Positions 9,027 to 29,652 of a DNA stretch of 29,652 bases are shown here, piece by piece. Source of the DNA: a virus. Each line of letters starts with the position of its first letter. The first letter of the stretch is position 1. Both the position numbers and the translations under genes were made by a program. The notes under the pieces are model-generated. The model saw only the letters and a list, made by a program, of their open reading frames with translations. It was not told where the DNA came from and made no database searches. The stretch is taken from the IMG/VR virus record IMGVR_UViG_3300020188_000039, positions 1 through 29,652 of that record. One strand, given 5' to 3'.

Positions 9027-9464
9027 ATGACACTTGATGAAATATTTGCATTATGGAAAGAAGACGCAGAAATTGATCCCACGCAGTTAGGCAATTCTGC
9101 TCTAAGCATCGCAAAACTGCATCATAAATACTACGAGATATTCTCCAGAGAACGTTTGCTTTTACGAAAGATGGAAGCAGACATGAAGACATTGAGACTT
9201 GACAAGCAAGAATTTTATATGGATGGACCAACTGAAGAACACATAGCCAAAGGCTGGAAGCTACCAGCAAAAGGCAAGATTATTAAAACAGATGTTGCTA
9301 ATTATATTGATGCTGACAGTGATATCATTGCGCTCAATCTCAAGTTGGCATATCAACAAGAAAAACTAAATGTTCTCGAATCTATCATCAAGACTCTAGC
9401 GAATAGAGGCTTTCACATTAAGTCTGCAATTGATTTTGAGAAATTCAGGATGAACGATATATGA
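9027..9464 (+). CDS. uvsY: Recombination mediator UvsY
   Basis: 145 aa, close to T4 UvsY (137 aa). It loads the UvsX recombinase onto gp32-covered single-stranded DNA. The opening TLDEIFALWKEDAEIDPTQLG, followed by KLHHKYYEIFSRERLLLRKMEAD, is the family signature. The C-terminal half (LKLAYQQEKLNVLESIIKTL) is a long helix used in hexamer formation. It overlaps the next gene by ATGA at 9461-9464 and is close to uvsW, as in T4. Confidence 0.92.
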   Translation: MTLDEIFALWKEDAEIDPTQLGNSALSIAKLHHKYYEIFSRERLLLRKMEADMKTLRLDKQEFYMDGPTEEHIAKGWKLPAKGKIIKTDVANYIDADSDIIALNLKLAYQQEKLNVLESIIKTLANRGFHIKSAIDFEKFRMNDI

Positions 9465-10399
9465 ATAAAAGAATGAAACAGATTGTGGACTCGTGCTATA
9501 GAATAGATTTAGATATTACAGCACAGTGCAATCGCACATGCTCTTTTTGTCCTCGTGTTGATGACATCATATATCCTAACATGAAAAAAGAAATGTCACT
9601 GGACACTGTTGCAGAAGTACTTAAACAGTGCGTCAAGTATGGATACAATGGATGGATAGAACTCGCTGGACGTGGTGAGCCAACTTTGCATAAACACTTT
9701 GAGATGATTGTTTCTATGATCGCCGATCATCCTCAGAAGACATGGAAACTCAGACTTACAACCAATGGATTCTCAATTGAAAAATGGTGGGATTCTGTTT
9801 CACCTAAACTTGATTGGTTGATTTTAAACAGCTATGACAGCGAAGAAGAATATAAAGAACGTTGTGAGAAGTATGAGAAACTACCAAACGACCAATATGT
9901 TCAGAACGAATATAAGCCAGATGGCACTTCAATCGAAGAGATAAACAAGATATCTTATGAAGATAAGGCAAATCCTTTACCTGATGGATTTCAATGGAAA
10001 CATTCATTCAATAACAGAGCTGGATTTTTTAGTAATCAATCTCAAGCCTTGCTATGTACACATCCACACACGCAGATATTCATTAACTATGATGGCGATT
10101 ATCAGATGTGTTGCAACGACTGGCTCAATCAAGTTACGATAGGAAACATACATGAAAGAAGATTGTTCGATATGTATGCGAACGATGAAAAGCTAAAATT
10201 TATAAGAAAAGCACTACAAAATGCTCGAAGAGACTTAATTGCACCTTGCTCAAAGTGTGATGATAGCACTGATATGTCTGTAATGAAACGACTCAAGAAA
10301 GATCACGGCGACAACTGGTTTGATGAATTGAAAAACATGTCAATCTTAGTAAGTGAAGCAGAAGAAGGTAAATATATTACGAGAACAATTATTGAATGA
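9461..10399 (+). CDS. Radical SAM enzyme with SPASM-type C-terminus
   Basis: 312 aa. The radical SAM cluster motif C23-x3-C27-x2-C30 (CNRTCSFC) is at the N-terminus, followed by an ELAGRGEPTLH segment typical of SAM binding (GE motif) and an LTTNGF strand. The C-terminal part has a SPASM/twitch-like set of cysteines (C199, C217-C218 in the DG-D-Y-Q-M-CC-ND stretch, C263 and C266) that would hold an auxiliary Fe-S cluster. Enzymes of this group modify peptides or carry out other radical reactions, and the substrate cannot be read from sequence. The gene is wedged between uvsY and uvsW with ATGA overlaps on both sides, so it is co-translated with recombination proteins. Confidence 0.88.
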   Translation: MNKRMKQIVDSCYRIDLDITAQCNRTCSFCPRVDDIIYPNMKKEMSLDTVAEVLKQCVKYGYNGWIELAGRGEPTLHKHFEMIVSMIADHPQKTWKLRLTTNGFSIEKWWDSVSPKLDWLILNSYDSEEEYKERCEKYEKLPNDQYVQNEYKPDGTSIEEINKISYEDKANPLPDGFQWKHSFNNRAGFFSNQSQALLCTHPHTQIFINYDGDYQMCCNDWLNQVTIGNIHERRLFDMYANDEKLKFIRKALQNARRDLIAPCSKCDDSTDMSVMKRLKKDHGDNWFDELKNMSILVSEAEEGKYITRTIIE

Positions 10400-12247: not shown

Positions 12248-12772
12248 ATGAGTAACTACATTGATAACAAAGAGTTTTATGCAATGTTGGTAGATTACAG
12301 AGAGAAATGTAATGAGGCCAGAAGTCAGGATAAACCTTTACCAAGAATTCCAGAGAAAATTGGTGAGTGTTTTTTAATGATAGCAACGAGACTTTCATCT
12401 AAAGTCAACTTCTCTGGTTACACATATAAAGATGAAATGGTCAGTGATGGCCTAGAGAATTGTATTGTTGCTGTTCACAGTTTTAATCCTGAAAAATCTA
12501 AAAATCCTTTTGCTTACTTCACACAGATTATCTGGTATGCATTCTTGCGCCGAATAGAAAAAGAAAAGAAGCAGACATATATCAAATTTAAGTCACTTGA
12601 AAATTTAGCTGTTGATATGAGTTTGTCAGACGATCCGTTAGATCAAGAAATATATGCAAGCATTGATTTGACAAATGAGAAGATGATACCAATACTTGAA
12701 AAATTCGAAAAGAAAAAAACTAAATCAAAGACTGAGAAGGTAGGTCTGGAGAAATTTATTGATGAAGACTGA
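12248..12772 (+). CDS. 55: Late-transcription sigma factor gp55
   Basis: 174 aa (T4 gp55 is 185 aa). This sigma70-region-2-like protein directs host RNA polymerase to TATAAATA late promoters and is normally activated by the sliding clamp gp45 through gp33. Seen are the N-terminal YIDNKEFYAMLVDYREKC, the IPEKIGECFLMIATRLSSK-x-NFSGYTYKDEM stretch typical of gp55, and PFAYFTQIIWYAFLRRIEKEKKQ, corresponding to the promoter-contacting helix. AAGGA (12236-12240) precedes ATG 12248. The late boxes found before gp19, gp22 and gp23 are its expected targets. Confidence 0.94.
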   Translation: MSNYIDNKEFYAMLVDYREKCNEARSQDKPLPRIPEKIGECFLMIATRLSSKVNFSGYTYKDEMVSDGLENCIVAVHSFNPEKSKNPFAYFTQIIWYAFLRRIEKEKKQTYIKFKSLENLAVDMSLSDDPLDQEIYASIDLTNEKMIPILEKFEKKKTKSKTEKVGLEKFIDED

Positions 12773-14507
12773 AACACCAATCAACACAGTGATGTCCTTT
12801 TATCTTGAAGGTCATGATAATTGCGTAACAATCTACCATCATCAATTTAAAAAATTGTTTCATATTAGTCTGTCTACCTTGTTAGATATTAAACATTTTA
12901 GTTTCTGGAGAGATGCTGGAAATCAAGACAGAAGAAAAACAGTTAAACAGGCACTACAATTTTACATAAGTAAAATACTACGAATTGAAAAAATTGATTT
13001 ACTTATTGTTAATATTCCTGAGGGCTTTAAAGATAACATACCTGACTCAGATTCGCCTATAGCAAGATCGCTTAATTTTATCTTGCAGTTAGATGTATGC
13101 AAAAACTCATTGATTGAATACTCTCCAAATACACATCATCAGAGACATGCATGGTGTGCATATGGACAGTCTGGTTTTGACAAGTGTGTGGTTCTTTCGC
13201 AAGATGGTGAAGGTGATAGAGAATCTTTTAATTTTTATTCATTCATAGACAATAATTTGACAACCATAGAAAAATATATAGAAATGAATGGTATCTGTTA
13301 TAATGCATATTCAGATATTGCGCTTGCATTGTGGAACTCAAAAAAAGAGCCACATCATATAAAAAACTTTAAAAAGATTATCAAGAGTAAAAAAATAAAA
13401 GAACGTCAAATCGTAACAACCAGAAAGCGATCTGAGTTGTTAGACTGTGCGGGTAAAGGTATGGGAATGTGTGCATTTGAAATGCCAGACAGAGAAATGG
13501 AAATAAAACTGAGAAAAAACTTCAGAACCATAATTCCTAATCCTCACGAAGAAAAACCTAAATTCGGAATGACTTTGTATAATATTAATAAAATAAAGCC
13601 TGGAATATTTGATGCTGATGAAGAAACACAGAAATCATTTGCAAAACAAATGATGTGGGTTGCTCAGAAAGAAATAGAAAATTCTACTCTCGCGACAATT
13701 GAAAATCACAAAGTTGACATTCAAAAACATGATAATAACTTAGTACTTTCGGGTGGAGTAGCACTGAATGTTCTACTCAATCAAAAAATAAAAGACAGAT
13801 ATCCACATTTTAATGTTTTTGTTCCTCCTAATCCAGATGATAGTGGATTATCGATGGGTAATATGTTACAGTGGATGATAACGAATGATATTGAAACTGA
13901 TTTTGAGTTTATCTATTCAGGAATGCAAATACAGAATGATTTTCCTATTGAAGATTTGTTGCTCATGAGTAGTGAAACTTCCTTGGAAGAGATTTCAAAA
14001 CTGCTATCACGTGGAAAGATACTAGCATTGTTCAGAGGTCGTTCTGAGATAGGACCTAGGGCTCTTGGAAATAGGTCAATACTTGCTGATCCTAAGTTTG
14101 CTGACACTAAAGACAAAATAAACAAGAAAGTTAAATTTCGCGAAATATACAGACCCTTTGCTCCAGTATGCAGGAAAGAAGACGCGCCAATATATTTTGA
14201 AAGTACAGATTATGAAAATATGGAAGCTATGGGTTATTGTCCTAGAGTACGTGAAGAATATAGAGATGTATTTCCTTCTGTTGTACATGTTGATGGCACA
14301 GCTAGATTGCAGACAGTCACAAAGGATCAGTCATCTTTACTATATGACTTATTAACGATTCATCCTACCGATGTCTTACTAAACACATCGTTTAATGTCG
14401 CAGGAAAACCTATCTGCAATAAAATGTCTACTGCATTGGATATACTAGACCAAACAGGTTTAGATCATCTTGTCTGGGAGCATAAAAGGAAGTTGTATAT
14501 TATTTGA
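12762..14507 (+). CDS. NodU/TobZ-family O-carbamoyltransferase
   Basis: 581 aa from ATG 12762 (GGAG at 12748-12751); an in-frame TTG three bases earlier is less likely. The family transfers carbamoyl from carbamoyl phosphate, with ATP, onto a hydroxyl. Motifs visible: N-terminal EGHDNCVTIY (the GHD-x-S-like site), NTHHQRHAWCAYGQSGFD with the metal-binding His residues, VVLSQDGEGD, LSGGVALNVLLNQ, then the C-terminal RGRSEIGPRALGNRSILADP and LLNTSFN. All expected motifs are intact, so it should be active. It overlaps the end of gp55 by 11 bp. Members of the family from phage metagenomes carbamoylate 5-hydroxymethylcytosine, so DNA modification is a reasonable role, but an antibiotic- or sugar-type substrate cannot be excluded. 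Confidence 0.9.
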   Translation: MKTETPINTVMSFYLEGHDNCVTIYHHQFKKLFHISLSTLLDIKHFSFWRDAGNQDRRKTVKQALQFYISKILRIEKIDLLIVNIPEGFKDNIPDSDSPIARSLNFILQLDVCKNSLIEYSPNTHHQRHAWCAYGQSGFDKCVVLSQDGEGDRESFNFYSFIDNNLTTIEKYIEMNGICYNAYSDIALALWNSKKEPHHIKNFKKIIKSKKIKERQIVTTRKRSELLDCAGKGMGMCAFEMPDREMEIKLRKNFRTIIPNPHEEKPKFGMTLYNINKIKPGIFDADEETQKSFAKQMMWVAQKEIENSTLATIENHKVDIQKHDNNLVLSGGVALNVLLNQKIKDRYPHFNVFVPPNPDDSGLSMGNMLQWMITNDIETDFEFIYSGMQIQNDFPIEDLLLMSSETSLEEISKLLSRGKILALFRGRSEIGPRALGNRSILADPKFADTKDKINKKVKFREIYRPFAPVCRKEDAPIYFESTDYENMEAMGYCPRVREEYRDVFPSVVHVDGTARLQTVTKDQSSLLYDLLTIHPTDVLLNTSFNVAGKPICNKMSTALDILDQTGLDHLVWEHKRKLYII

Positions 14508-17332: not shown

Positions 17333-17608
17333 ATGCCTTATAAAATTTATACGAGAATATCTAAAGACGCTAGTATTTGGTCACCAGTGATTGATACTGA
17401 TGCATCATGGAAAAAAGCAAATGTTATTGACAAAATTTTTATGTCAGAAGCAGAATGTAGAGAGTTTATTGATAGAGTCGTCAGCGGCGGCGAAGAGGCT
17501 TATCAATATGTAGATTCCGAACTTCATAAAATTGTAGAAATTGATGGAACTGAGCCTAGTTATAAAGAGCAAGTAGAGCAAGTTCTCAGGGAAAATAATG
17601 TTATTTAA
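17333..17608 (+). CDS. Small protein, function unknown
   Basis: 91 aa, acidic, with a predicted mixed alpha/beta fold (a YKIYTRISKD strand, a WKKANVIDKIFMSEAECREFIDRVV helix, then QYVDSELHKIVEIDG strands). It has no membrane segment and no recognisable catalytic motif. AGGAG at 17322-17326 precedes ATG 17333. Its last codons overlap the first of the JmjC-like gene by 11 bp, so the two are probably co-translated. I do not recognise a family. Confidence 0.6.
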   Translation: MPYKIYTRISKDASIWSPVIDTDASWKKANVIDKIFMSEAECREFIDRVVSGGEEAYQYVDSELHKIVEIDGTEPSYKEQVEQVLRENNVI

Positions 17609-18377
17609 AGACCTTATTGATCCTATTTCAGAAGAAGAGTTTGTCAGTGAATACAAAGGCAAGAAGCCATTCGTCTCACGTGGCAACAAAGTAAGAAAGA
17701 AATTCTTCTCTGATATTATATCATGGAAAAAGTTCAGTGAGTACATTAGCAATGATAGGGCTGTATCTGGCTTACAGGCGATTGTTCCTGCTGAACCAAT
17801 GCCATTGAAACTCTGCATGGAAAAGCCAGGACCTAACTACCTGAAACCAGAGGGTTCTAAGTTCTGGCGTAGAGAAGACTATTGGTTTGATGCAAAGAGA
17901 TTGCAGACATTATGGTATAATAATGACACATCGATAATTTTGACAAAAGCTGGAAAATTGACACCTAACATCAATTCTATCTGTGGCGGATTTGAGAAAG
18001 GCTATGAGTCAATAGTAAAAGCTGGCTGTGCGGCTGATGCACATTTTTATTGTTCACAGAATAAAGGTGCGCATTCATTCGAGTGTCATGCCGACGGTTT
18101 GGATAACTTCATAATTCACAGTATTGGAAAAGTTCATTGGAAAGTTTATCCAATTTTTACCAATGGCAAAAAGAACATAATGACTGAAGAAGAAGAATCG
18201 AAGCATGAGCCTTTCATTGATGAGGTATTATCTGAAGGTGACGTTCTCTATTTGCCTAAAGGAATATTTCACAGGGCGCATTCGATTGGGCCTAGAATCT
18301 CAATCTCAGTACAAGTCGCTGAAAATCAGGGCGCTATCGACAGGAACTGGTATGACTTCACTCCAAAATTTGCTTGA
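17598..18377 (+). CDS. JmjC/cupin-4-type 2-oxoglutarate oxygenase
   Basis: 259 aa. The N-terminus (FVSEYKGKKPFVSRG) matches the entry strand of the ROX/cupin_4 group. The iron site is visible as H164-A-D166 in FECHADGLDNFIIHSIGKVHW, with the distal histidine H225 in LYLPKGIFHRAHSIG. The K-V-H-W-K-V-Y-P strand after the HxD motif is typical of JmjC-like enzymes, which hydroxylate protein side chains such as ribosomal His or Arg in bacteria. The target in the phage is unknown; candidates are a ribosomal or virion protein or a modified base. Its TGA forms part of the -35 box of the next promoter. Confidence 0.82.
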   Translation: MLFKDLIDPISEEEFVSEYKGKKPFVSRGNKVRKKFFSDIISWKKFSEYISNDRAVSGLQAIVPAEPMPLKLCMEKPGPNYLKPEGSKFWRREDYWFDAKRLQTLWYNNDTSIILTKAGKLTPNINSICGGFEKGYESIVKAGCAADAHFYCSQNKGAHSFECHADGLDNFIIHSIGKVHWKVYPIFTNGKKNIMTEEEESKHEPFIDEVLSEGDVLYLPKGIFHRAHSIGPRISISVQVAENQGAIDRNWYDFTPKFA

Positions 18378-18425: not shown

Positions 18426-19394
18426 ATGGAATTAACAATTAAAATGGAAGAATTGAGACAGTGTAAACTGTTTCTCGCTGTTCCGATGTATGGCGGTCAG
18501 TGTGCTGGTATGTTCACGAAGTCTATTGCTGATCTAACTGGTCTCTTGGCTAAGTACCAAGTTCCTCTTCAGTTCTATTTCTTGTTCAATGAATCATTAA
18601 TTACGAGAGCAAGAAATTACTGTGTAGACGAATTCATGCGCTCGGACTGTACTCACTTGATGTTTATTGATGCTGACATTGGTTTCAAAGCTGAAGATGT
18701 TGTTGCGATGTTAGGTATGTCTTGTCAGAATCCAGACTATCACGTTCTCTGTGGTCCTTATCCTAAGAAGACTATCTCATGGGAAAAGATCAAGCGAGCA
18801 GTCGATAAGGGTGTTGCTGACGAAGATCCTAATGTACTTGAGAACTTCGTAGGCGACTATGTATTTAATCCTTTACGCACTGATAAAGATGGCGCGATTA
18901 AGATCGGCGAGCCATGTCAGGTACTCGAAGGCGGCACTGGTTTCATGATGATTCAGAAAGAAGTGTTTCACAAATACGATGAAGCATATCCTCAGTTCAA
19001 GTATCGCCCAGATCATGTTCGAACGGCTAACTTCGATGGCAGTCGTGAGATCATGGCATATTTTGATGCGCTGATTGATGACAAGTCACAGAATCTTATG
19101 AATGAAATCAATGCGTTCTATGATCAGAATCCTGATGCATCACGAGATGATGTGGTAGAATTTTTGTCAGATAAAACTACAGGAATTCATACAAAAGAAT
19201 ATTCAAATAGGTACTTGTCAGAAGACTATATGTTCTGCTATAATGTACAGAGAATGGGTATGAAAGTTTGGTTATGTCCTTGGATGGAACTGAAGCACGT
19301 AGGCAGTTATATCTTTGGTGGATCATTAGCGCATTTAGCATCTGTTGGAGCCGCGGCCACCGCAGACGCTAAAGAACTTGGTAAAAAGAAATAG
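18426..19394 (+). CDS. GT-A fold glycosyltransferase
   Basis: 322 aa. An opening LFLAVPMYGG strand leads to TRARNYCVDEFMRSDCTHLMFIDADIGF, with the D82-A-D84 metal-binding DxD. Further on come the GGTGFMMIQKEVF acceptor-side segment, SEDYMFCYNVQRMG (a catalytic-base-like Glu-Asp) and LKHVGSY. This fits an inverting GT2-like enzyme without membrane helices. The C-terminus ends in a short Ala-rich and Lys tail. AGAGGA precedes ATG 18426. It is the first gene of the clamp/clamp-loader transcription unit, so it is expressed early. The substrate could be DNA, a virion protein or a host glycan. The N-terminal motif is shared with the proteins at 24605 and 28508. Confidence 0.85.
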   Translation: MELTIKMEELRQCKLFLAVPMYGGQCAGMFTKSIADLTGLLAKYQVPLQFYFLFNESLITRARNYCVDEFMRSDCTHLMFIDADIGFKAEDVVAMLGMSCQNPDYHVLCGPYPKKTISWEKIKRAVDKGVADEDPNVLENFVGDYVFNPLRTDKDGAIKIGEPCQVLEGGTGFMMIQKEVFHKYDEAYPQFKYRPDHVRTANFDGSREIMAYFDALIDDKSQNLMNEINAFYDQNPDASRDDVVEFLSDKTTGIHTKEYSNRYLSEDYMFCYNVQRMGMKVWLCPWMELKHVGSYIFGGSLAHLASVGAAATADAKELGKKK

Positions 19395-21123: not shown

Positions 21124-21336
21124 ATGGATATTAAAATTCTAGAAAATCTAATCGACAAATACAATGCAGAGATGCAAGCGGCGAGTTTGAACATTGATGT
21201 ATATGGCAAATCTGCTGTAGGTATCGGTGAACATCCAGATATCGTTGAAGCTGTAGAGTCACAGGTCAAGCGATATAGTGAAGCAAAAGAAATGCACGAT
21301 GCCGCATATGATCTCTTAGTTTCTAGAACTCAATGA
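21124..21336 (+). CDS. Small protein, function unknown
   Basis: 70 aa from ATG 21124, which has a strong GAGGAG 7-12 bases before it; an upstream GTG at 21100 overlaps gp44 and is unlikely. Two helices are predicted (DIKILENLIDKYNAEMQAASLN and IVEAVESQVKRYSEAKEMHDAAYDLL) around a short Gly-rich turn, with no catalytic motif or membrane segment. Its stop overlaps the following ATG (ATGA), implying coupling to the FkbM-type gene. I do not recognise a family. Confidence 0.6.
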   Translation: MDIKILENLIDKYNAEMQAASLNIDVYGKSAVGIGEHPDIVEAVESQVKRYSEAKEMHDAAYDLLVSRTQ

Positions 21337-22010
21337 AAGGCTATTCAGAGCTTCTACACATCATTAAAGAGCAAGTCGATGATGTAGAACAGTGGCTATG
21401 GATTGCAGAAGACTGGGAAGGCTATCGTTGGCCTAAAGAAGACTGGCAGAATGCAATCAAAGGCTTGATACAAAAGCATGTCAAAAAGTTTGGTGTTGTG
21501 GTACAAGCAGGTGGACTGCAAGGAATGTATCCACGATTGCTGAGTGACATGTTTGAGCGTGTCTATACATTCGAGCCTGATCCTATGAGTTTTCACTGTC
21601 TCGTTAACAACTGTCAGAAAGACAACATCGTCAAGTTGCAAGCGGCTGTCGGTGAAACGTTTGGTCTGATTGATGTCAATCGATTCTGCTCGCATAACGT
21701 AGGCATGAATAACGTAGTCGCTGGTAATAAGTATCCTATGCTCACGATTGATTCTCTATGTCTAGATGACTGTAGTTTCATGCAGTTGGATGTAGAAGGC
21801 TTTGAACTCGCCGCACTCCGTGGTGCAAAGAATACAATCGAGAAATACAAGCCAGTGATATGTCTTGAGACTAGAATTGGCACAGAGAAGCCAGTTGATG
21901 ACTACATGAAGTCGATAGGCTACTATGAGATGGACAAATATCACCATGACTCTTTCTATGTCTTTGGTGGTTCACTTAGCACTGAGAGCGTTAATTATCT
22001 AACCATGTGA
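21333..22010 (+). CDS. FkbM-family SAM-dependent methyltransferase
   Basis: 225 aa. The family pattern is present: VVVQAGGLQGMYPRLLSDMF at the SAM site (motif I), FEPDPMSFHCLVNNC (motif II), KLQAAVGE, and the hallmark QLDVEGFELAALRGAKNTI with PVICLETR. FkbM-type enzymes O-methylate sugars or small molecules, and relatives occur in phage glycan or DNA-modification loci. The N-terminal 45 residues (Trp-rich, EQWLWIAEDWEGYRWPKEDW) are an extension I do not recognise. It is inserted between clamp-loader genes 44 and 62, unlike T4. Confidence 0.85.
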   Translation: MKGYSELLHIIKEQVDDVEQWLWIAEDWEGYRWPKEDWQNAIKGLIQKHVKKFGVVVQAGGLQGMYPRLLSDMFERVYTFEPDPMSFHCLVNNCQKDNIVKLQAAVGETFGLIDVNRFCSHNVGMNNVVAGNKYPMLTIDSLCLDDCSFMQLDVEGFELAALRGAKNTIEKYKPVICLETRIGTEKPVDDYMKSIGYYEMDKYHHDSFYVFGGSLSTESVNYLTM

Positions 22011-23943: not shown

Positions 23944-24019
23944 GCGGGTGTAGCTCAGTTGGTAGAGCGTCTGCTTGCCAAGCAGAAGGTCACGAGTTCG
24001 ACCCTCGTTACCCGCTCCA
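23944..24019 (+). tRNA. tRNA-Gly (anticodon GCC)
   Basis: Cloverleaf: acceptor GCGGGTG/TACCCGC (last pair G-T), D arm GCTC...GAGC, anticodon stem TCTGC/GCAGA with loop TTGCCAA, T arm ACGAG-TTCGACC-CTCGT, discriminator T, and an encoded CCA at 24017-24019. Confidence 0.95.
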
Positions 24020-24021
24020 AA

Positions 24022-24085
<64 letters not shown>

Positions 24086-24097
<12 letters not shown>

Positions 24098-24433
24098 TTC
24101 TTAACGAAACAACCAAAAACACTTTTTGAATTAGTTCCAGAAATTGGTATAGAGAGAGGCTCGGCCGACAGTATTATTGACGAACAGTTTCCTCATATCA
24201 AAGAGAAACTTTTATTGTTATGGGGTAGTAGAGAGTGCATGGAATATCTTCAATCACTCATTGAGTACAGTGTAAGTACAGATAGATCAGGTAGGCAAGG
24301 GTTCCCTTTTCATGCAGTCGTAGAACTCAACATCATTCGAAGAGTTCACCACAGAGATTTTTCTTATGAAGACACAACATTTGCCATGAGACAAAACGAC
24401 ATATGGAATCCAGGACGTAAAGATGGAAACTGA
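24086..24433 (+). CDS. Protein of unknown function whose start falls inside tRNA-Thr
   Basis: 115 aa if initiated at GTG 24086, which is within the 3' acceptor strand of tRNA-Thr. The frame is open back to a stop at 24050. No ATG occurs until 24239, which would remove the N-terminal 51 residues. The sequence has a helical part (DEQFPHIKEKLLLLWGS, CMEYLQSLIEYS) and a basic stretch (ELNIIRRVHHRDFSYED). Initiation may be at GTG 24086 or a near-cognate codon, or the gene may have lost its original start when the tRNAs arrived. The end overlaps the next small gene by 11 bp. Family not recognised. Confidence 0.55.
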
Positions 24434-24608
24434 TAAATCAACATTTGAAATGAGCGTTAGAGTACTGGGCAATGAATTGTTTGGTGTTAAACTACAGACA
24501 GAAGATTTCAGTACAAAACTATTAATAATCTCACTAGTAGCATTCATTGGATTCGGTGGCGGTATTGCTACGTTTGGACCTGATATAGTAGAACTATTCG
24601 GCAAATGA
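24423..24608 (+). CDS. Small single-span membrane protein
   Basis: 61 aa. An acidic, soluble N-terminal 30 residues (METDKSTFEMSVRVLGNELFGVKL) are followed by one hydrophobic segment, LLIISLVAFIGFGGGIATF (about residues 34-52), and a short tail. It likely sits in the host inner membrane. The ATG overlaps the previous gene and its stop overlaps the following glycosyltransferase ATG (ATGA), so the three are translationally linked. Function unknown. Confidence 0.6.
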   Translation: METDKSTFEMSVRVLGNELFGVKLQTEDFSTKLLIISLVAFIGFGGGIATFGPDIVELFGK

Positions 24609-25669
24609 AAATACTGCCCGCTATCTTAACTTCAGAGCATCCAGAGAGTCTTCAGATATCAATGAAGCAGATGGGATATATCCCAGAACTTACAATCTTT
24701 GTTGACACATGGGATGAGAATTATAAGCAGTGGGTAGTTGATACTTACTCGAAGTATTACAAGGTAGTTGTATCAGACTCACGGTTGAGAGGTTCCCCAG
24801 GACGAGGTAAGAATTTTGTATTGGAATATTTTCTTAACTCTGACTACACACATCTGATACCTGTTGATGGCGATGACTTTCTGTGGACAGGCAGTTATGA
24901 AAAAATGTCAAAAATCATCGAGCGTCATCCAGCAGATTTTTACCATTACGAGTATACAGATTTCTTGTACTCGTATAAAGATCAAGCGGCCGAGTTGTGG
25001 TGGACTAAAGAGTGGTACAAGAGTCTATATGAGTCGTTTCTAGACTTCGATAAACTGGATAAGATTTCACAGAGCCACAGATACTTGAAATACATATATG
25101 ATGTTGATCGAATTGCAATCGAAACAAAAAAGTCTGCCGAGCATAAGTATGTCGAGGAAGTATATACGCTAGAAGACGTACATAGAAATCTCAGATTGAA
25201 GTACGAGGCTCTATCTGAAAACATGACAGGATACTCGATACGTTCGAGAGATTTTTACATGCACATAAAGACTTTCTCACACTCAGAAAAGAAGAGGCGA
25301 CCTAGGCATTTTCAGAGTGGTGATCCTAGAGATTACGATTTCAACTTCGATTGCGGCTTCGACTGGCACACTAATGATTGTATTCGCAGAAATAAAAAAT
25401 TGCTATCGACACTTAGATGGAATGAAGAAGATGAAAAAATTATGTCTTCTAGACTACCGTCCATTGCAATGAGAGACAATATCAGTTATAATTACAAGAA
25501 AGATTTTTTGAACAAAAATTATACTGATTGGCCTATCGAGACGGATTACTATGTTGATCCATTGTACGGTAACTTTTTTGAAGACTACAGAGTAGATGCT
25601 GATGAAACAATCGAAGAATATATTGAAAAAAAGATACAACTGCCTTGGCGATCTGAAGACAGCGATTGA
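24605..25669 (+). CDS. GT-A fold glycosyltransferase (second)
   Basis: 354 aa. The N-terminal half carries the nucleotide-sugar fold: ILPAILTSEHPESL, then RGSPGRGKNFVLEYFLNSDYTHLIPVDGDDFLW with the metal-binding D88-G-D90-D91. The C-terminal half (about residues 190-340) is rich in Arg, Lys, Asp and aromatics and contains SGDPRDYDFNFDCGFDWHTND; I do not recognise it, and it could be the acceptor-binding part. There is no membrane helix. It shares the R-G-K-N-F...T-H...D-D pattern with the proteins at 18426 and 28508. Confidence 0.75.
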   Translation: MKILPAILTSEHPESLQISMKQMGYIPELTIFVDTWDENYKQWVVDTYSKYYKVVVSDSRLRGSPGRGKNFVLEYFLNSDYTHLIPVDGDDFLWTGSYEKMSKIIERHPADFYHYEYTDFLYSYKDQAAELWWTKEWYKSLYESFLDFDKLDKISQSHRYLKYIYDVDRIAIETKKSAEHKYVEEVYTLEDVHRNLRLKYEALSENMTGYSIRSRDFYMHIKTFSHSEKKRRPRHFQSGDPRDYDFNFDCGFDWHTNDCIRRNKKLLSTLRWNEEDEKIMSSRLPSIAMRDNISYNYKKDFLNKNYTDWPIETDYYVDPLYGNFFEDYRVDADETIEEYIEKKIQLPWRSEDSD

Positions 25670-25787
25670 GCGAGAGACAAACGAGAAAGTTGTTAGCTTT
25701 AATGGATATAAGTTGACAACGAACAAAAATCAATATACAATGTTTGATAGTACCATTTATGTTAACGGTAAGAGTGTAGAAGAGTAA
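25602..25787 (+). CDS. Small protein, function unknown, overlapping the glycosyltransferase
   Basis: 61 aa from ATG 25602 (63 aa from ATG 25596); neither start has a clear Shine-Dalgarno. The ORF overlaps the last 68 bp of the glycosyltransferase. The later part (LGDLKTAIERETNEKVVSFNGYKLTTNKNQYTMFDSTIYVNG) reads as a small beta-rich domain and is not what the random overlap frame would give, so the gene is probably real. It carries a TTGACA/TACAAT promoter in its coding sequence and stops 1 base before tRNA-Asn. Confidence 0.5.
   Translation: MKQSKNILKKRYNCLGDLKTAIERETNEKVVSFNGYKLTTNKNQYTMFDSTIYVNGKSVEE
25713..25741 (+). promoter_or_regulatory. Sigma70-type promoter within the small gene before tRNA-Asn
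   Basis: TTGACA (25713-25718), 17-bp spacer, TACAAT (25736-25741), reading toward tRNA-Asn at 25789. It is placed to transcribe tRNA-Asn, the 25881 gene, tRNA-Arg and the peroxiredoxin. Confidence 0.65.
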
Positions 25788-25788
25788 A

Positions 25789-25864
<76 letters not shown>

Positions 25865-25880
25865 ATTAAGGAGATATAGT

Positions 25881-26039
25881 ATGGCTAGAGCATGGCGTAA
25901 AAACAACGAGACTGCACGGCGAGCAGTTGCGCTACAGAATTTGAAGAACTCAAAGTTCTTTGAGAAGAATGATCGAACGCAGGATGCTTGGCAGGCACGT
26001 AAAGATGCTGAGATCGCGATCTTGGAAAAGAGAGTTTAA
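25881..26039 (+). CDS. Small basic protein between two tRNAs
   Basis: 52 aa, strongly basic at the N-terminus (MARAWRKNNETARRAVALQN) and mostly helical, with no Cys. AGGAG (25869-25873) precedes ATG 25881. It lies in the 190-bp gap between tRNA-Asn and tRNA-Arg. Small, Arg/Lys-rich helical proteins in this position could bind RNA or DNA, but nothing more can be said. No family is recognised. Confidence 0.55.
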   Translation: MARAWRKNNETARRAVALQNLKNSKFFEKNDRTQDAWQARKDAEIAILEKRV

Positions 26040-26053
26040 TTCTCACCGAACAT

Positions 26054-26130
26054 CTCCCGATAGCACAATCGGATAGTGCAACAGCCTTCTAAGCTGTAGG
26101 TTGTAGGTTCGAGTCCTACTCGGGAGGCCA
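26054..26130 (+). tRNA. tRNA-Arg (anticodon TCT)
   Basis: Acceptor CTCCCGA/TCGGGAG, D arm GCAC...GTGC, anticodon stem ACAGC/GCTGT with loop CTTCTAA, T arm GTAGG-TTCGAGT-CCTAC, discriminator G, encoded CCA at 26128-26130. It would serve AGA and AGG codons, which are common in the genes here. Confidence 0.94.
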
Positions 26131-27296: not shown

Positions 27297-27390
27297 AGGT
27301 GATCATTGGGAATATCGTTCACGCGAACCTGCTGGCTATATAAATTTTGTTGACAAGTCAGATGCCGTTGTGGTATCATATGATGAATAA
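27205..27390 (+). CDS. Small beta-rich protein, function unknown
   Basis: 61 aa from ATG 27205 (GGAG at 27191-27194); a longer in-frame start at 27169 is possible. It overlaps the metalloprotein gene by 92 bp in another frame. The body reads WYSHLIGQTVPFLGDEGDHWEYRS then GYINFVDKSDAVVV, a compact beta pattern. The long overlap with a conserved gene is notable. No family is recognised and no catalytic residues stand out. Confidence 0.5.
   Translation: MKQMLLIQTCKDQSKWYSHLIGQTVPFLGDEGDHWEYRSREPAGYINFVDKSDAVVVSYDE
27350..27379 (+). promoter_or_regulatory. Sigma70-type promoter candidate before the 27408 gene
   Basis: TTGACA (27350-27355), 18-bp spacer, TATCAT (27374-27379), inside the 27205 small gene and reading toward the MTase/TAGT cluster. 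The -10 has one mismatch and the spacing is 18. Confidence 0.55.
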
Positions 27391-27407
27391 TTGTAGTGGA
27401 GAGTACT

Positions 27408-27737
27408 ATGTCAGATGTAAAAGAATCTGGTTCTTATGATAACTTTGTTGGCAAGAAAGAAAAAGTAGAGCAAGCGACTCTTGAAGATTTCTTTGATGTT
27501 CAAATAGAAACTCCTAAGAACTCTTGGGAGAAACATTGGCAAGATATGCCAGAGTTTGATCAAGAAGAAAATAAAACGTATAAGACTATCAGTGTCCATT
27601 TCCGAACGAAAGAAGACTATGATGCGTTCGCTAAACTAGTAGAGCAGAATATCACTGATCGAACTAAATCTATCTGGTATCCTAAACTTGAGATCACTAA
27701 AAATTCTTTGTTGAGATGGATCGAAGATGATGAATAG
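27408..27737 (+). CDS. Protein of unknown function at the head of the TAGT cluster
   Basis: 109 aa from ATG 27408; an upstream GTG at 27396 is less likely. The N-terminal 45 residues are acidic and look disordered. The C-terminal half (YKTISVHFRTKEDYDAFAKLVE then RTKSIWYPKLEI, NSLLRWIEDD) is well structured with aromatic-rich strands. Its ATG is not coupled upstream, but its end overlaps the methyltransferase by 11 bp. The repeated association in marine phages with DNA-modification-type genes is my recollection, not shown here. No catalytic motif is evident. Confidence 0.55.
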   Translation: MSDVKESGSYDNFVGKKEKVEQATLEDFFDVQIETPKNSWEKHWQDMPEFDQEENKTYKTISVHFRTKEDYDAFAKLVEQNITDRTKSIWYPKLEITKNSLLRWIEDDE

Positions 27738-28515
27738 TTTTCTAACAGAGAAGCCTATTGCATTATATGAATATTTTTTGAGAGATTATAGTTCACTGTT
27801 TGACATTGATCTAGAGAAAGCCAGAAGAATTCGGAAAGATAACTCGCTGTTCACGGAACTGACCGAGCGTTGGTACGAACACCTCGATGCTGGAAACTTA
27901 GACGAAGCATTTAAAGTGTATGATGACGATTATTATTTTGTTGATATCTTTAATTGCTTTGTAGGATATAGTAGACAGTATATTAGAAGACTCATGAAGC
28001 CATCTCTTCCCTATGGCGGATCGATGTATGAAGTGCTAAAAGATACCAAGTCTTTTGTTGACATCGGCTGTGGTATCAGTTATAGTACTTGCACGTTGAA
28101 AGAAATCTTTCCCAATGCTAATGCTTATGCTATCAATCTTAAAGATACAAAGCAGTGGAAATTCTGTGAAATAATGTCAGAAAGAATGGATTTCAATTTG
28201 ATCGAATCTATCCATGATGTGAAGCACGATGTAGATTTTGTTTTTGCTTCTGAGTATTTCGAACATATTTACAATCCAGTTGAACATGTGAAAGAAATAA
28301 TTGATGCAGTATCGCCGAAATACTTTATCATTGCTAATGCGTTCAATACATGGTCTATCGGTCACTTTAGACAGTACGAACACGGTCACTCGATTGTTGA
28401 TCAAAAAAATATGTCAAAAATTTTCAATACATTTATGAAATCACAGGGATATATACAAGCCGAGTGTAAGATGTGGAATAACAAGCCTGTGATATGGAGC
28501 AGAATAGATGACTAA
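27727..28515 (+). CDS. Class I SAM-dependent methyltransferase
   Basis: 262 aa. Motif I is clear: FVDIGCGISYS (residues 110-120), followed by FPNANAYAINL (post-I), D-V-D-F-V-F-A-S-E-Y-F-E-H (motif IV region) and YFIIANAFNTW. It lacks the (D/N)PP(Y/F) motif of adenine/N4-cytosine DNA methylases and the PC motif of C5 methylases, so it does not look like a standard restriction-type DNA MTase. The N-terminal 100 residues (EKPIALYEYFLRDYSSLF) are helical, perhaps substrate recognition. Overlaps the preceding gene (11 bp) and TAGT gene (8 bp), so the three appear to be one operon. Confidence 0.8.
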   Translation: MMNSFLTEKPIALYEYFLRDYSSLFDIDLEKARRIRKDNSLFTELTERWYEHLDAGNLDEAFKVYDDDYYFVDIFNCFVGYSRQYIRRLMKPSLPYGGSMYEVLKDTKSFVDIGCGISYSTCTLKEIFPNANAYAINLKDTKQWKFCEIMSERMDFNLIESIHDVKHDVDFVFASEYFEHIYNPVEHVKEIIDAVSPKYFIIANAFNTWSIGHFRQYEHGHSIVDQKNMSKIFNTFMKSQGYIQAECKMWNNKPVIWSRIDD

Positions 28516-29449
28516 TCCTAAGTATCCTGTTTATATTATTTCTAAAGGTAGACATGAAAGCATGTTTACCTCTAAGTCTTTGGCGCGCATGAAAGTACCA
28601 CACTACATCGCGATTGAACCACAAGACGAAGAGAACTATGAGAAAGCACTGGATAACTTCGGCATTCGAGACTATGTTACTTTACTGATTGCTCCTTTCA
28701 GTAATCATGGTGATGGTCCTGGTCGTGCGAGAAACTGGTGCTGGGATCACTCTATCAGTATCGGCGCAACAAGCCACTGGGTACTCGATGACAACATTCA
28801 AGACTTCTATCGACTTCACCAGAATGTTCGTATACGTGTCGGCAGTGGTGTATGCTTTAAGATCATGGAAGACTTTGTTGATCGATATGAGAATGTGATG
28901 ATTGCTGGTCCACAATATCGTTTCTTCTGCGCACCAAATCAGAAGTATCCGCCATTTGTAGCGAACACTCGAATCTATTCTTGCTTGTTGATTCGCAATG
29001 ACTGCAAGCATCGTTGGCGTGGACGTTACAATGAAGATACTGATATTTGTTTGCGTGTATTGAAAGACGGTGACTGTACAGTACAGTTCAATGCTTTTCT
29101 GCAAGGTAAAGCCGCGACACAGACACTTAAAGGTGGCAACACTGAAGAATTTTATCACAAAGAAATTGGTTATGATCCTGAAACTGGTGAAGCAATCAAA
29201 GCAGAAGATTTAGTTGAGACCAGAGAACGATACAATACTTCTGGTACGATTGCGAAGTCACAGATGCTTGTAGACATGCATCCAGACGTTGCCACGCTCG
29301 TTTGGCGCTACGGCCGCTGGCATCACCATGTCAACTATGATCCATTTAAAGCAAATGAATTAAAGTTTAAATCTGGTGTTACAGTGAAGAAAGGTATAAA
29401 TAACTATGGGCTAAAGCTCATCGATAATTATACTGGACCAGTTTCATAG
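28508..29449 (+). CDS. TET-associated-type glycosyltransferase (TAGT)
   Basis: 313 aa. The opening YPVYIISKGRHESMFTSKSL, then GPGRARNWCWDHSISIGATSH and WVLDDNIQDF (D94-D95-N), the EDFVDRYENVMIAGPQYRFF segment, FVANTRIYSCLLIRND and RWRGRYNEDTDICLRVLKDG match the TAGT family as I know it from phage hypermodification loci. That family is proposed to glycosylate oxidised methyl groups of DNA pyrimidines. The C-terminal 60 residues are a Trp/His-rich extension (VWRYGRWHHHVNYDP). It overlaps the methyltransferase by 8 bp. No TET or JBP-like gene was found in the window, so the substrate must come from elsewhere. The family call is by motif, not by search. Confidence 0.8.
   Translation: MTNPKYPVYIISKGRHESMFTSKSLARMKVPHYIAIEPQDEENYEKALDNFGIRDYVTLLIAPFSNHGDGPGRARNWCWDHSISIGATSHWVLDDNIQDFYRLHQNVRIRVGSGVCFKIMEDFVDRYENVMIAGPQYRFFCAPNQKYPPFVANTRIYSCLLIRNDCKHRWRGRYNEDTDICLRVLKDGDCTVQFNAFLQGKAATQTLKGGNTEEFYHKEIGYDPETGEAIKAEDLVETRERYNTSGTIAKSQMLVDMHPDVATLVWRYGRWHHHVNYDPFKANELKFKSGVTVKKGINNYGLKLIDNYTGPVS
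29395..29402 (+). promoter_or_regulatory. Candidate T4-type late promoter before the kinase gene
   Basis: A perfect TATAAATA within the 3' end of the TAGT gene, 51-57 bp before the kinase starts. Inside a coding region it could be chance, but the octamer is exact and in the right direction. Confidence 0.4.
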
Positions 29450-29453
29450 GATA

Positions 29454-29652
29454 ATGAAAATGCTAGGATTTCAAGACTTTCACGATAAAACTCAAATAGA
29501 AGAATTGTGTGAGGCGCTGATCACCTTCGGAGGTAAAGCGTATCCCAAATTCAACAACGTCATTATCATGGCGGGCGGAGCTGGATCGGGTAAAGGATTT
29601 GTTCTTAGCAATCTTGTTGGTGCAGAAGGATATGTATTTGATGTTGATGCTC
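29454..29652 (+). CDS. P-loop kinase/nucleotide-binding protein, 5' part only
   Basis: The window ends inside the gene. Two starts are in frame: ATG 29454 and ATG 29460; AGGA at 29448-29451 is better spaced for 29460. The first 66 residues include the P-loop GGAGSGKG (residues 41-48 from 29454) after a hydrophobic strand, VIIMA, and the stretch GYVFDVDA, which would carry a base- or Asp-type contact. The family resembles small-molecule or polynucleotide kinases; DNA hypermodification loci in other phages also use P-loop kinases that phosphorylate modified bases. The C-terminal part is needed for a firm call. Confidence 0.6.
   Translation, partial: MKMLGFQDFHDKTQIEELCEALITFGGKAYPKFNNVIIMAGGAGSGKGFVLSNLVGAEGYVFDVDA

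Follow-up and report, generated by a model that had tools for sequence, protein, structure and literature searches.

Which of the genes found together at the end of a T4-like phage fragment form a functional unit, and on what would this unit act? The window, that is, the whole stretch of 29,652 nucleotides (29.6 kb) analysed here, comes from a marine T4-like phage and encodes a portal protein, a prohead protease, a major head protein, UvsY, a UvsW-type helicase, gp47/46, the clamp gp45, the clamp loader 44/62 and RegA. An earlier note, made from the letters alone, had described four overlapping or adjacent genes at its 3' end, encoding a TET-associated-type glycosyltransferase (TAGT), a class I SAM methyltransferase (MT), an unrecognised partner and a P-loop kinase, as one cluster that could make a new sugar-based DNA modification on oxidised pyrimidine methyl groups. 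The four open reading frames and their family names are borne out by coordinates and profiles (Table 1). The partner and MT genes overlap by 11 bp and the MT and TAGT genes by 8 bp, and a gap of 4 bp separates the TAGT stop from the P-loop gene. The latter is complete (285 aa) at 10947-11804 of contig L003, which is 100% identical to the last 11.1 kb of the window. Promoter-like sites of the type found ahead of the partner gene occur in this region at a frequency expected by chance.

Table 1. Features of the gene cluster at the 3' end of the window
Feature	Position	Strand	Remarks
Promoter-like TTGACA-18-TATCAT	27350..27379	+	11/12, TG ahead of second hexamer; just 5' of partner
Partner	27408..27737	+	109 aa; ATG with GGAG upstream; earlier GTG at 27396 possible
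MT, predicted O-methyltransferase, class I SAM	27727..28515	+	262 aa; sits in the slot between partner and TAGT
TAGT glycosyltransferase, GT-A fold	28508..29449	+	313 aa; PF20691, phrog_842
P-loop protein, Zeta_toxin/AAA_33 type, phrog_5268	29454..29652	+	cut by the window end, 66/285 aa

The glycosyltransferase and its partner domain

The TAGT assignment, which the earlier note had staked on a profile search, holds by a wide margin: the protein matches PF20691 with an E-value of 1.5e-45 and 156.1 bits against a cut-off of 27.5, over positions 1-204 of the 205 in the profile, and phrog_842 with an E-value of 2.9e-47. An acidic metal-binding motif, D94-D95-N96, is invariant in the TAGT of 11 relatives. 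Solved structures include no sequence relatives of this protein, and the fused relative L036, which has 78% identity to the window TAGT, stood in for it in the structure search; its AlphaFold2 model (pLDDT 83) finds GT-A glycosyltransferases as its best PDB matches (E 3e-5), so that both family and fold are established. "TET-associated" is here a family name that implies no pathway, since searches of the viral relatives gave neither TET nor C5-methylase, and a clear separate hydroxymethylase of the thymidylate synthase (TS) family only in PTm1.

The unrecognised partner turned out to be real, and its linkage to the TAGT is the strongest element of the cluster. The protein consists of a domain of ~70 aa, with the motif W..MPEF...F..I.VHFR..EDY..FAKL..Q..T..TKSIWYP, and an acidic N-terminal leader. 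The domain is itself acidic (pI about 4.7) and no obvious DNA binder; a Pfam search gave no family for it, and its PHROG match is weak (phrog_22103, E 2.4e-4). Among 105 loci selected by TAGT or MT, the partner adjoins the TAGT in 103, and in the two exceptions the TAGT starts at the contig end. An independent count, with the partner alone as query and thus without choosing loci by their TAGT, agrees: of the 70 partner genes that are followed by a long enough stretch of contig, 69 have a TAGT next to them (45), one gene on, or fused. The association is therefore near-obligate, and it extends to fusion, the partner forming the N-terminus of the TAGT in Aeh1, phiAS5, Ah1, PTm1 and POP12, and being present in duplicate in the fused proteins of six contigs (L026, L029, L030, L032, L036 and L045). 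Taken without the rest of the chain proposed below, the glycosyltransferase assignment and the partner linkage are practically certain.

A second kind of fusion bears on the target. In prophage-like loci of Erwinia, Pantoea, Chryseobacterium and others, the partner makes up the C-terminal part of a ParB_N protein, and the gene for this protein overlaps the TAGT gene or abuts it; in L141 ParB_N, partner and TAGT share one reading frame. Over their ParB part, these prophage proteins match the DNA-methyltransferase PHROG phrog_498, and ParBc domains are often fused to DNA methyltransferases (PMC12783734). Together, these links constitute the best, though indirect, evidence for DNA as the target, and from its family and this linkage the TAGT would be expected to transfer a glycosyl group to a DNA base.

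The methyltransferase and the exchangeable slot

The MT matches Methyltransf_11 exactly at the cut-off (E 4.6e-4), and its relative L182 matches Methyltransf_23 (E 3.2e-7); a DxGCG loop and an EYFEH motif are invariant in the family. Its AlphaFold2 model (pLDDT 91) has small-molecule O-methyltransferases as nearest Foldseek neighbours (E 1.8e-6), with modest TM-scores, at most 0.55 among the 50 matches listed, in agreement with the class I fold. Neither the Pfam and PHROG profiles nor the fold search gave a match to a C5, N6 or N4 DNA-methylase family, in keeping with the earlier description of a class I methyltransferase devoid of DNA-methylase motifs, and the enzyme appears to be of a generic class I small-molecule type.

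The phage and plasmid collections gave no MT match. The tie between MT and TAGT proved right across many phages, since all 25 loci found with the MT alone as query (three belong to the window's own population) have an adjoining TAGT. In L143, an unrelated contig from a Bacteroidetes MAG, a homologue (profile E 9e-73) precedes partner-TAGT, and in other contigs homologues lie 3' of the TAGT. The Erwinia and Pantoea prophages have, ahead of ParB-partner-TAGT, a GT9-like gene and a class I methyltransferase of another kind.

The place that the MT takes between partner and TAGT is a slot that is either empty or filled by one gene: the MT, an FkbM methyltransferase (L234), a second, divergent TAGT, a GT4-type glycosyltransferase, a 354-aa protein without family or, once, an HNH gene. 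Apart from the last two, all slot contents are thus methyltransferases or glycosyltransferases, and methyl and glycosyl transfer are the activities expected for glycan finishing. The slot has turned over repeatedly: on a quick tree of 106 TAGTs, with 13 labels uncertain ("other"), the arrangement label changes at least 38 times and the presence of MT 9 times. Such swapping gives the impression of a rapidly changing disguise that would protect against the defences of bacteria. A kinship of the 354-aa slot protein with T4 alpha-glucosyltransferase was considered, but neither Pfam and PHROGs nor PDB sequences and hhalign lent it support.

Fused versions can also be preceded by an additional gene, either for an FkbM methyltransferase (L032, L036) or for a kinase/nucleotidyltransferase-like protein. 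The latter, at L026:8568-9356 and likewise in L029, L030 and L045, is a P-loop kinase with a nucleotidyltransferase-like C-terminus encoded directly upstream of the fused TAGT and could be the source of an activated sugar. The window has an FkbM methyltransferase gene of its own (21333-22010, E 3.6e-11), adjoining a clamp loader gene.

These data bear on the order in which the enzymes would act. We consider the sugar to be probably the substrate of the MT. Alternatively, the MT would make or mark the acceptor base ahead of the TAGT. Such an order would agree with the position of the window MT, upstream of the TAGT and overlapping it, and with the methyltransferase that adjoins the TAGT where TET-linked clusters are found, for instance in P12024L. 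However, the MT is dispensable, as most TAGT loci do without it and some slots are empty, and glycosyltransferases and the FkbM methyltransferase substitute for it there; the absence of a DNA-methylase family match and a fold closest to small-molecule O-methyltransferases also speak against this order, which we regard as improbable.

The P-loop protein

The fourth gene had been grouped with the other three as that of a kinase acting on modified bases, and linkage across relatives contradicts this grouping. The complete protein from L003 is a Zeta_toxin match (E 2e-8) and a member of phrog_5268 (E 1.5e-105). Its homologues lie within 10 kb of a TAGT in 6 of the 105 loci, all from the window's own population. 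It is found in 209 phage records, mostly of Klebsiella, Enterobacter and Cronobacter phages and nearly all without this TAGT; the same collection has 24 records with this TAGT, so that at most 24 of the 209 could have both. Even though the kinase gene starts only 4 bp past the TAGT, a four-gene pathway, with the kinase phosphorylating a modified base for further processing by TAGT and MT, is, on these counts, barely credible. Since its position is not conserved beyond this population, the kinase was rejected as a pathway member.

Two further genes lie 3' of the kinase in the window's own population, GT29-like (L003:12132-12851, PF00777, E 2.7e-5) and GT8-like (L003:12854-13522, E 1.9e-4), the GT29-like protein having only two weak phage relatives.

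The search for an acceptor

If the TAGT acts on DNA, a base able to receive the sugar may be made by an accompanying enzyme, and the earlier note had called for a search for a hydroxymethylase, TET-like or TS-like gene. Run on the relatives, this search returned a clear second TS-family gene in PTm1, and neither TET nor C5-methylase in viral relatives. Tet_JBP is absent from the contigs of 25 relatives and from 9 isolate phages with partner-TAGT, whereas the control, P12024L, was found (E 2.8e-29). The TS family is likewise absent from the 25 contigs, with gp42 of T4 and T6 detected as controls; among the isolates, Aeh1 has a weak second copy besides the clear one of PTm1, and phiAS5, 65, Kuja and POP12 have one gene. 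No C5-methylase occurs in 29 records (the 25 contigs plus 4 isolates); one lies two or three genes downstream of the TAGT in the MAG contigs L140 and L143. These absences leave oxidised pyrimidine methyl groups without support as the acceptor, but are only suggestive, as many contigs, including the window's genome, are fragments.

Other candidates fared no better. JmjC_2 occurs, among the partner-TAGT records searched, only in the window's own population, where it is a 2OG oxygenase gene at 17598-18377 (E 1.4e-16); 2OG-FeII_Oxy_3 is found in 5 of 27 records, and so is ThyX (5 of 27), which we read as serving ordinary dTMP synthesis. None of the TS family, ThyX, Tet_JBP, C5-methylase, JmjC_2 and 2OG-FeII_Oxy_3 is common to the group, and all were rejected as a shared acceptor maker. 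Two unrelated 47-kb Vibrio phages have TAGTs that are 64.5% identical; beyond these, all that they share is a small gene and about two genes of replication, at 30-38% identity, and no other accessory gene is common to these compact genomes.

Either the acceptor comes from host chemistry or from an unrecognised enzyme, or is unmodified, or else the target is something other than DNA. In its boldest form, the DNA reading would make this a self-contained glycosylation module that dispenses with TET, dCMP/dUMP hydroxymethylase and C5-methylase, with a new acceptor chemistry, an exchangeable slot and O-methylated sugars on DNA; we put this forward tentatively, as the less likely outcome.

Proposed mechanism and the target of the sugar

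According to our working model, partner and TAGT would act as one sugar transferase, made of two chains in the window phage and of one in other phages. The TAGT would transfer a sugar from a nucleotide-sugar to an acceptor, for which a base of the phage's own replicated DNA is the likeliest candidate, while the partner domain may dock or position the TAGT on this target. The MT would next O-methylate the sugar or glycan and in this way cap or diversify it, and the enzymes found in the slot of relatives (FkbM methyltransferase, second TAGT, GT4 glycosyltransferase) would lead to different final glycans. Taken as a whole, this chain, with a partner-TAGT sugar transferase acting probably on DNA, an MT methylating its sugar and a slot diversifying the product, appears to us about evenly poised between right and wrong. 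A sugar-based system stands as the most likely role, as had been proposed, with DNA as a target deduced indirectly, whereas the kinase and the oxidised-pyrimidine chemistry did not find support.

DNA is favoured because the TAGT lies within a T4-type recombination/replication gene cluster in many relatives, just as T4 a-gt adjoins gene 47, because of the ParB_N link, and because the TAGT of T6 reportedly acts on DNA. On the other hand, the reading is weakened by the lack of an acceptor enzyme travelling along, by the acidic partner, by the little that the Vibrio pair shares and by phage 1.076, where the TAGT gene lies between portal and head morphogenesis genes, a position that fits a virion-protein target. 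Nucleoside data for phages with this module were not found in the literature, nor did a search of open papers yield restriction digests of phiAS5 or Aeh1 DNA.

In the corresponding alternative, partner-TAGT would act on a capsid, tail or host protein, and the slot enzymes would trim the protein glycan. Besides the location in phage 1.076, proximity to terminase genes in prophages and the missing base-hydroxylating enzyme are consistent with it, as is the presence of the protein glycosyltransferases LH3 and POMGnT1 among the top GT-A fold matches of the L036 model; virion glycosylation is known in mycobacteriophages (cited in PMC12619734). However, ParB_N linkage is typical of DNA-modifying enzymes, the characterised members of the TAGT family act on DNA, the T4-like relatives have their TAGT in the replication cluster, and the module occurs in a wide range of unrelated phages, which have no known virion protein in common. 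We regard a protein target as a serious possibility, though clearly a minority one.

Relation to known systems

A characterised relative is the TAGT of T6 (Ggt). It is reported to place another sugar on hydroxymethylcytosine that is already glucosylated, in DNA, giving gentiobiosyl-hydroxymethylcytosine (PMC13216743; PMC13390438). Like the window TAGT, it belongs to PF20691, is of predicted GT-A type and comes from a replication-associated region of a T4-like phage. The window enzyme could accordingly be imagined to put a second sugar on alpha- or beta-glucosylated hydroxymethylcytosine, the activity for which phrog_842 is named, and T6 ggt adjoins gene 42. Against this stand an identity of only 17%, the lack of the partner domain in T6 Ggt, and its substrate, which depends on gp42: searches of the window phage's relatives did not turn up this enzyme, the TS family being absent from the 25 contigs while the T4/T6 control was positive. 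We consider a T6-like reaction very unlikely.

Other systems resemble the module in part. The TAGT of the Nonlabens phage P12024L shares the Pfam family and an adjoining methyltransferase gene, but is 27% identical, has Tet_JBP directly upstream (not found here) and lacks the partner domain. Proteins of the Aeh1p093 / phiAS5 ORF218 type, from Aeromonas phages, do have the partner domain, with 51% identity over the TAGT core, and their phages are also without a clear separate hydroxymethylase; they differ in that partner and TAGT form one chain and no slot enzyme is present. A glucosyltransferase of Aeh1, "Aeh1ORF087c", which is likely the same gene as Aeh1p093, is listed in PMC8056088, with reference to Iyer 2013, among presumed modifiers of DNA, its base being given as unknown. 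T4 alpha-glucosyltransferase (a-gt, PF11440) is also a DNA glucosyltransferase encoded next to genes 46/47, but has a GT-B fold and unrelated sequence, and acts on hydroxymethylcytosine. In the CmoX/CmoY carboxymethylcytosine system (PMC12783734), DNA hypermodification genes likewise accompany a ParBc protein, whereas its chemistry is that of carboxymethyl and amide groups, with no sugar and no TAGT.

According to a 2026 study, of 753 phage genomes with such glycosyltransferases, 288 have solitary TAGTs, which are recognised as unexplained and considered potentially novel transferases (PMC13216743). One large group of TAGTs now gains a signature, the partner domain, and a ParB_N link pointing to DNA. 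As far as the literature examined shows, the partner domain, the ParB_N link and the exchangeable slot are new. Phage glycosyltransferases reportedly make diverse glycans on 5hmC (work ascribed to Pyle, 2024), so that sugar diversity as such is already known. Sister phages, whose slot enzymes form a natural series, are predicted to differ in their end products, and isolated phages with the partner-TAGT module exist.

Other genes of the window and its relatives

Several further genes may be mentioned. A phrog_1574 protein without Pfam match is encoded at 18426-19394 and is conserved in 55 relatives, close to the gene of the sliding clamp; the relatives' sequences, with a FIDSDI motif, resemble yet another glycosyltransferase, a possible first-sugar enzyme. 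An open reading frame of 354 aa (24605-25669) with a DGDD motif resembles a GT-A glycosyltransferase, and gave no match to Pfam or PHROG families or to phage records. At 12759-14507 lies a carbamoyltransferase gene of NolO type (PF16861, E 1.6e-51), a type known from phage base hypermodification and glycan decoration. A Radical SAM/SPASM protein is encoded between UvsY and a helicase (9461-10399), and another radical SAM/SPASM gene lies directly 3' of the TAGT in L127. Finally, four tRNA genes (Gly, Thr, Asn and Arg) are located between the RegA and peroxiredoxin genes (23944-26130).
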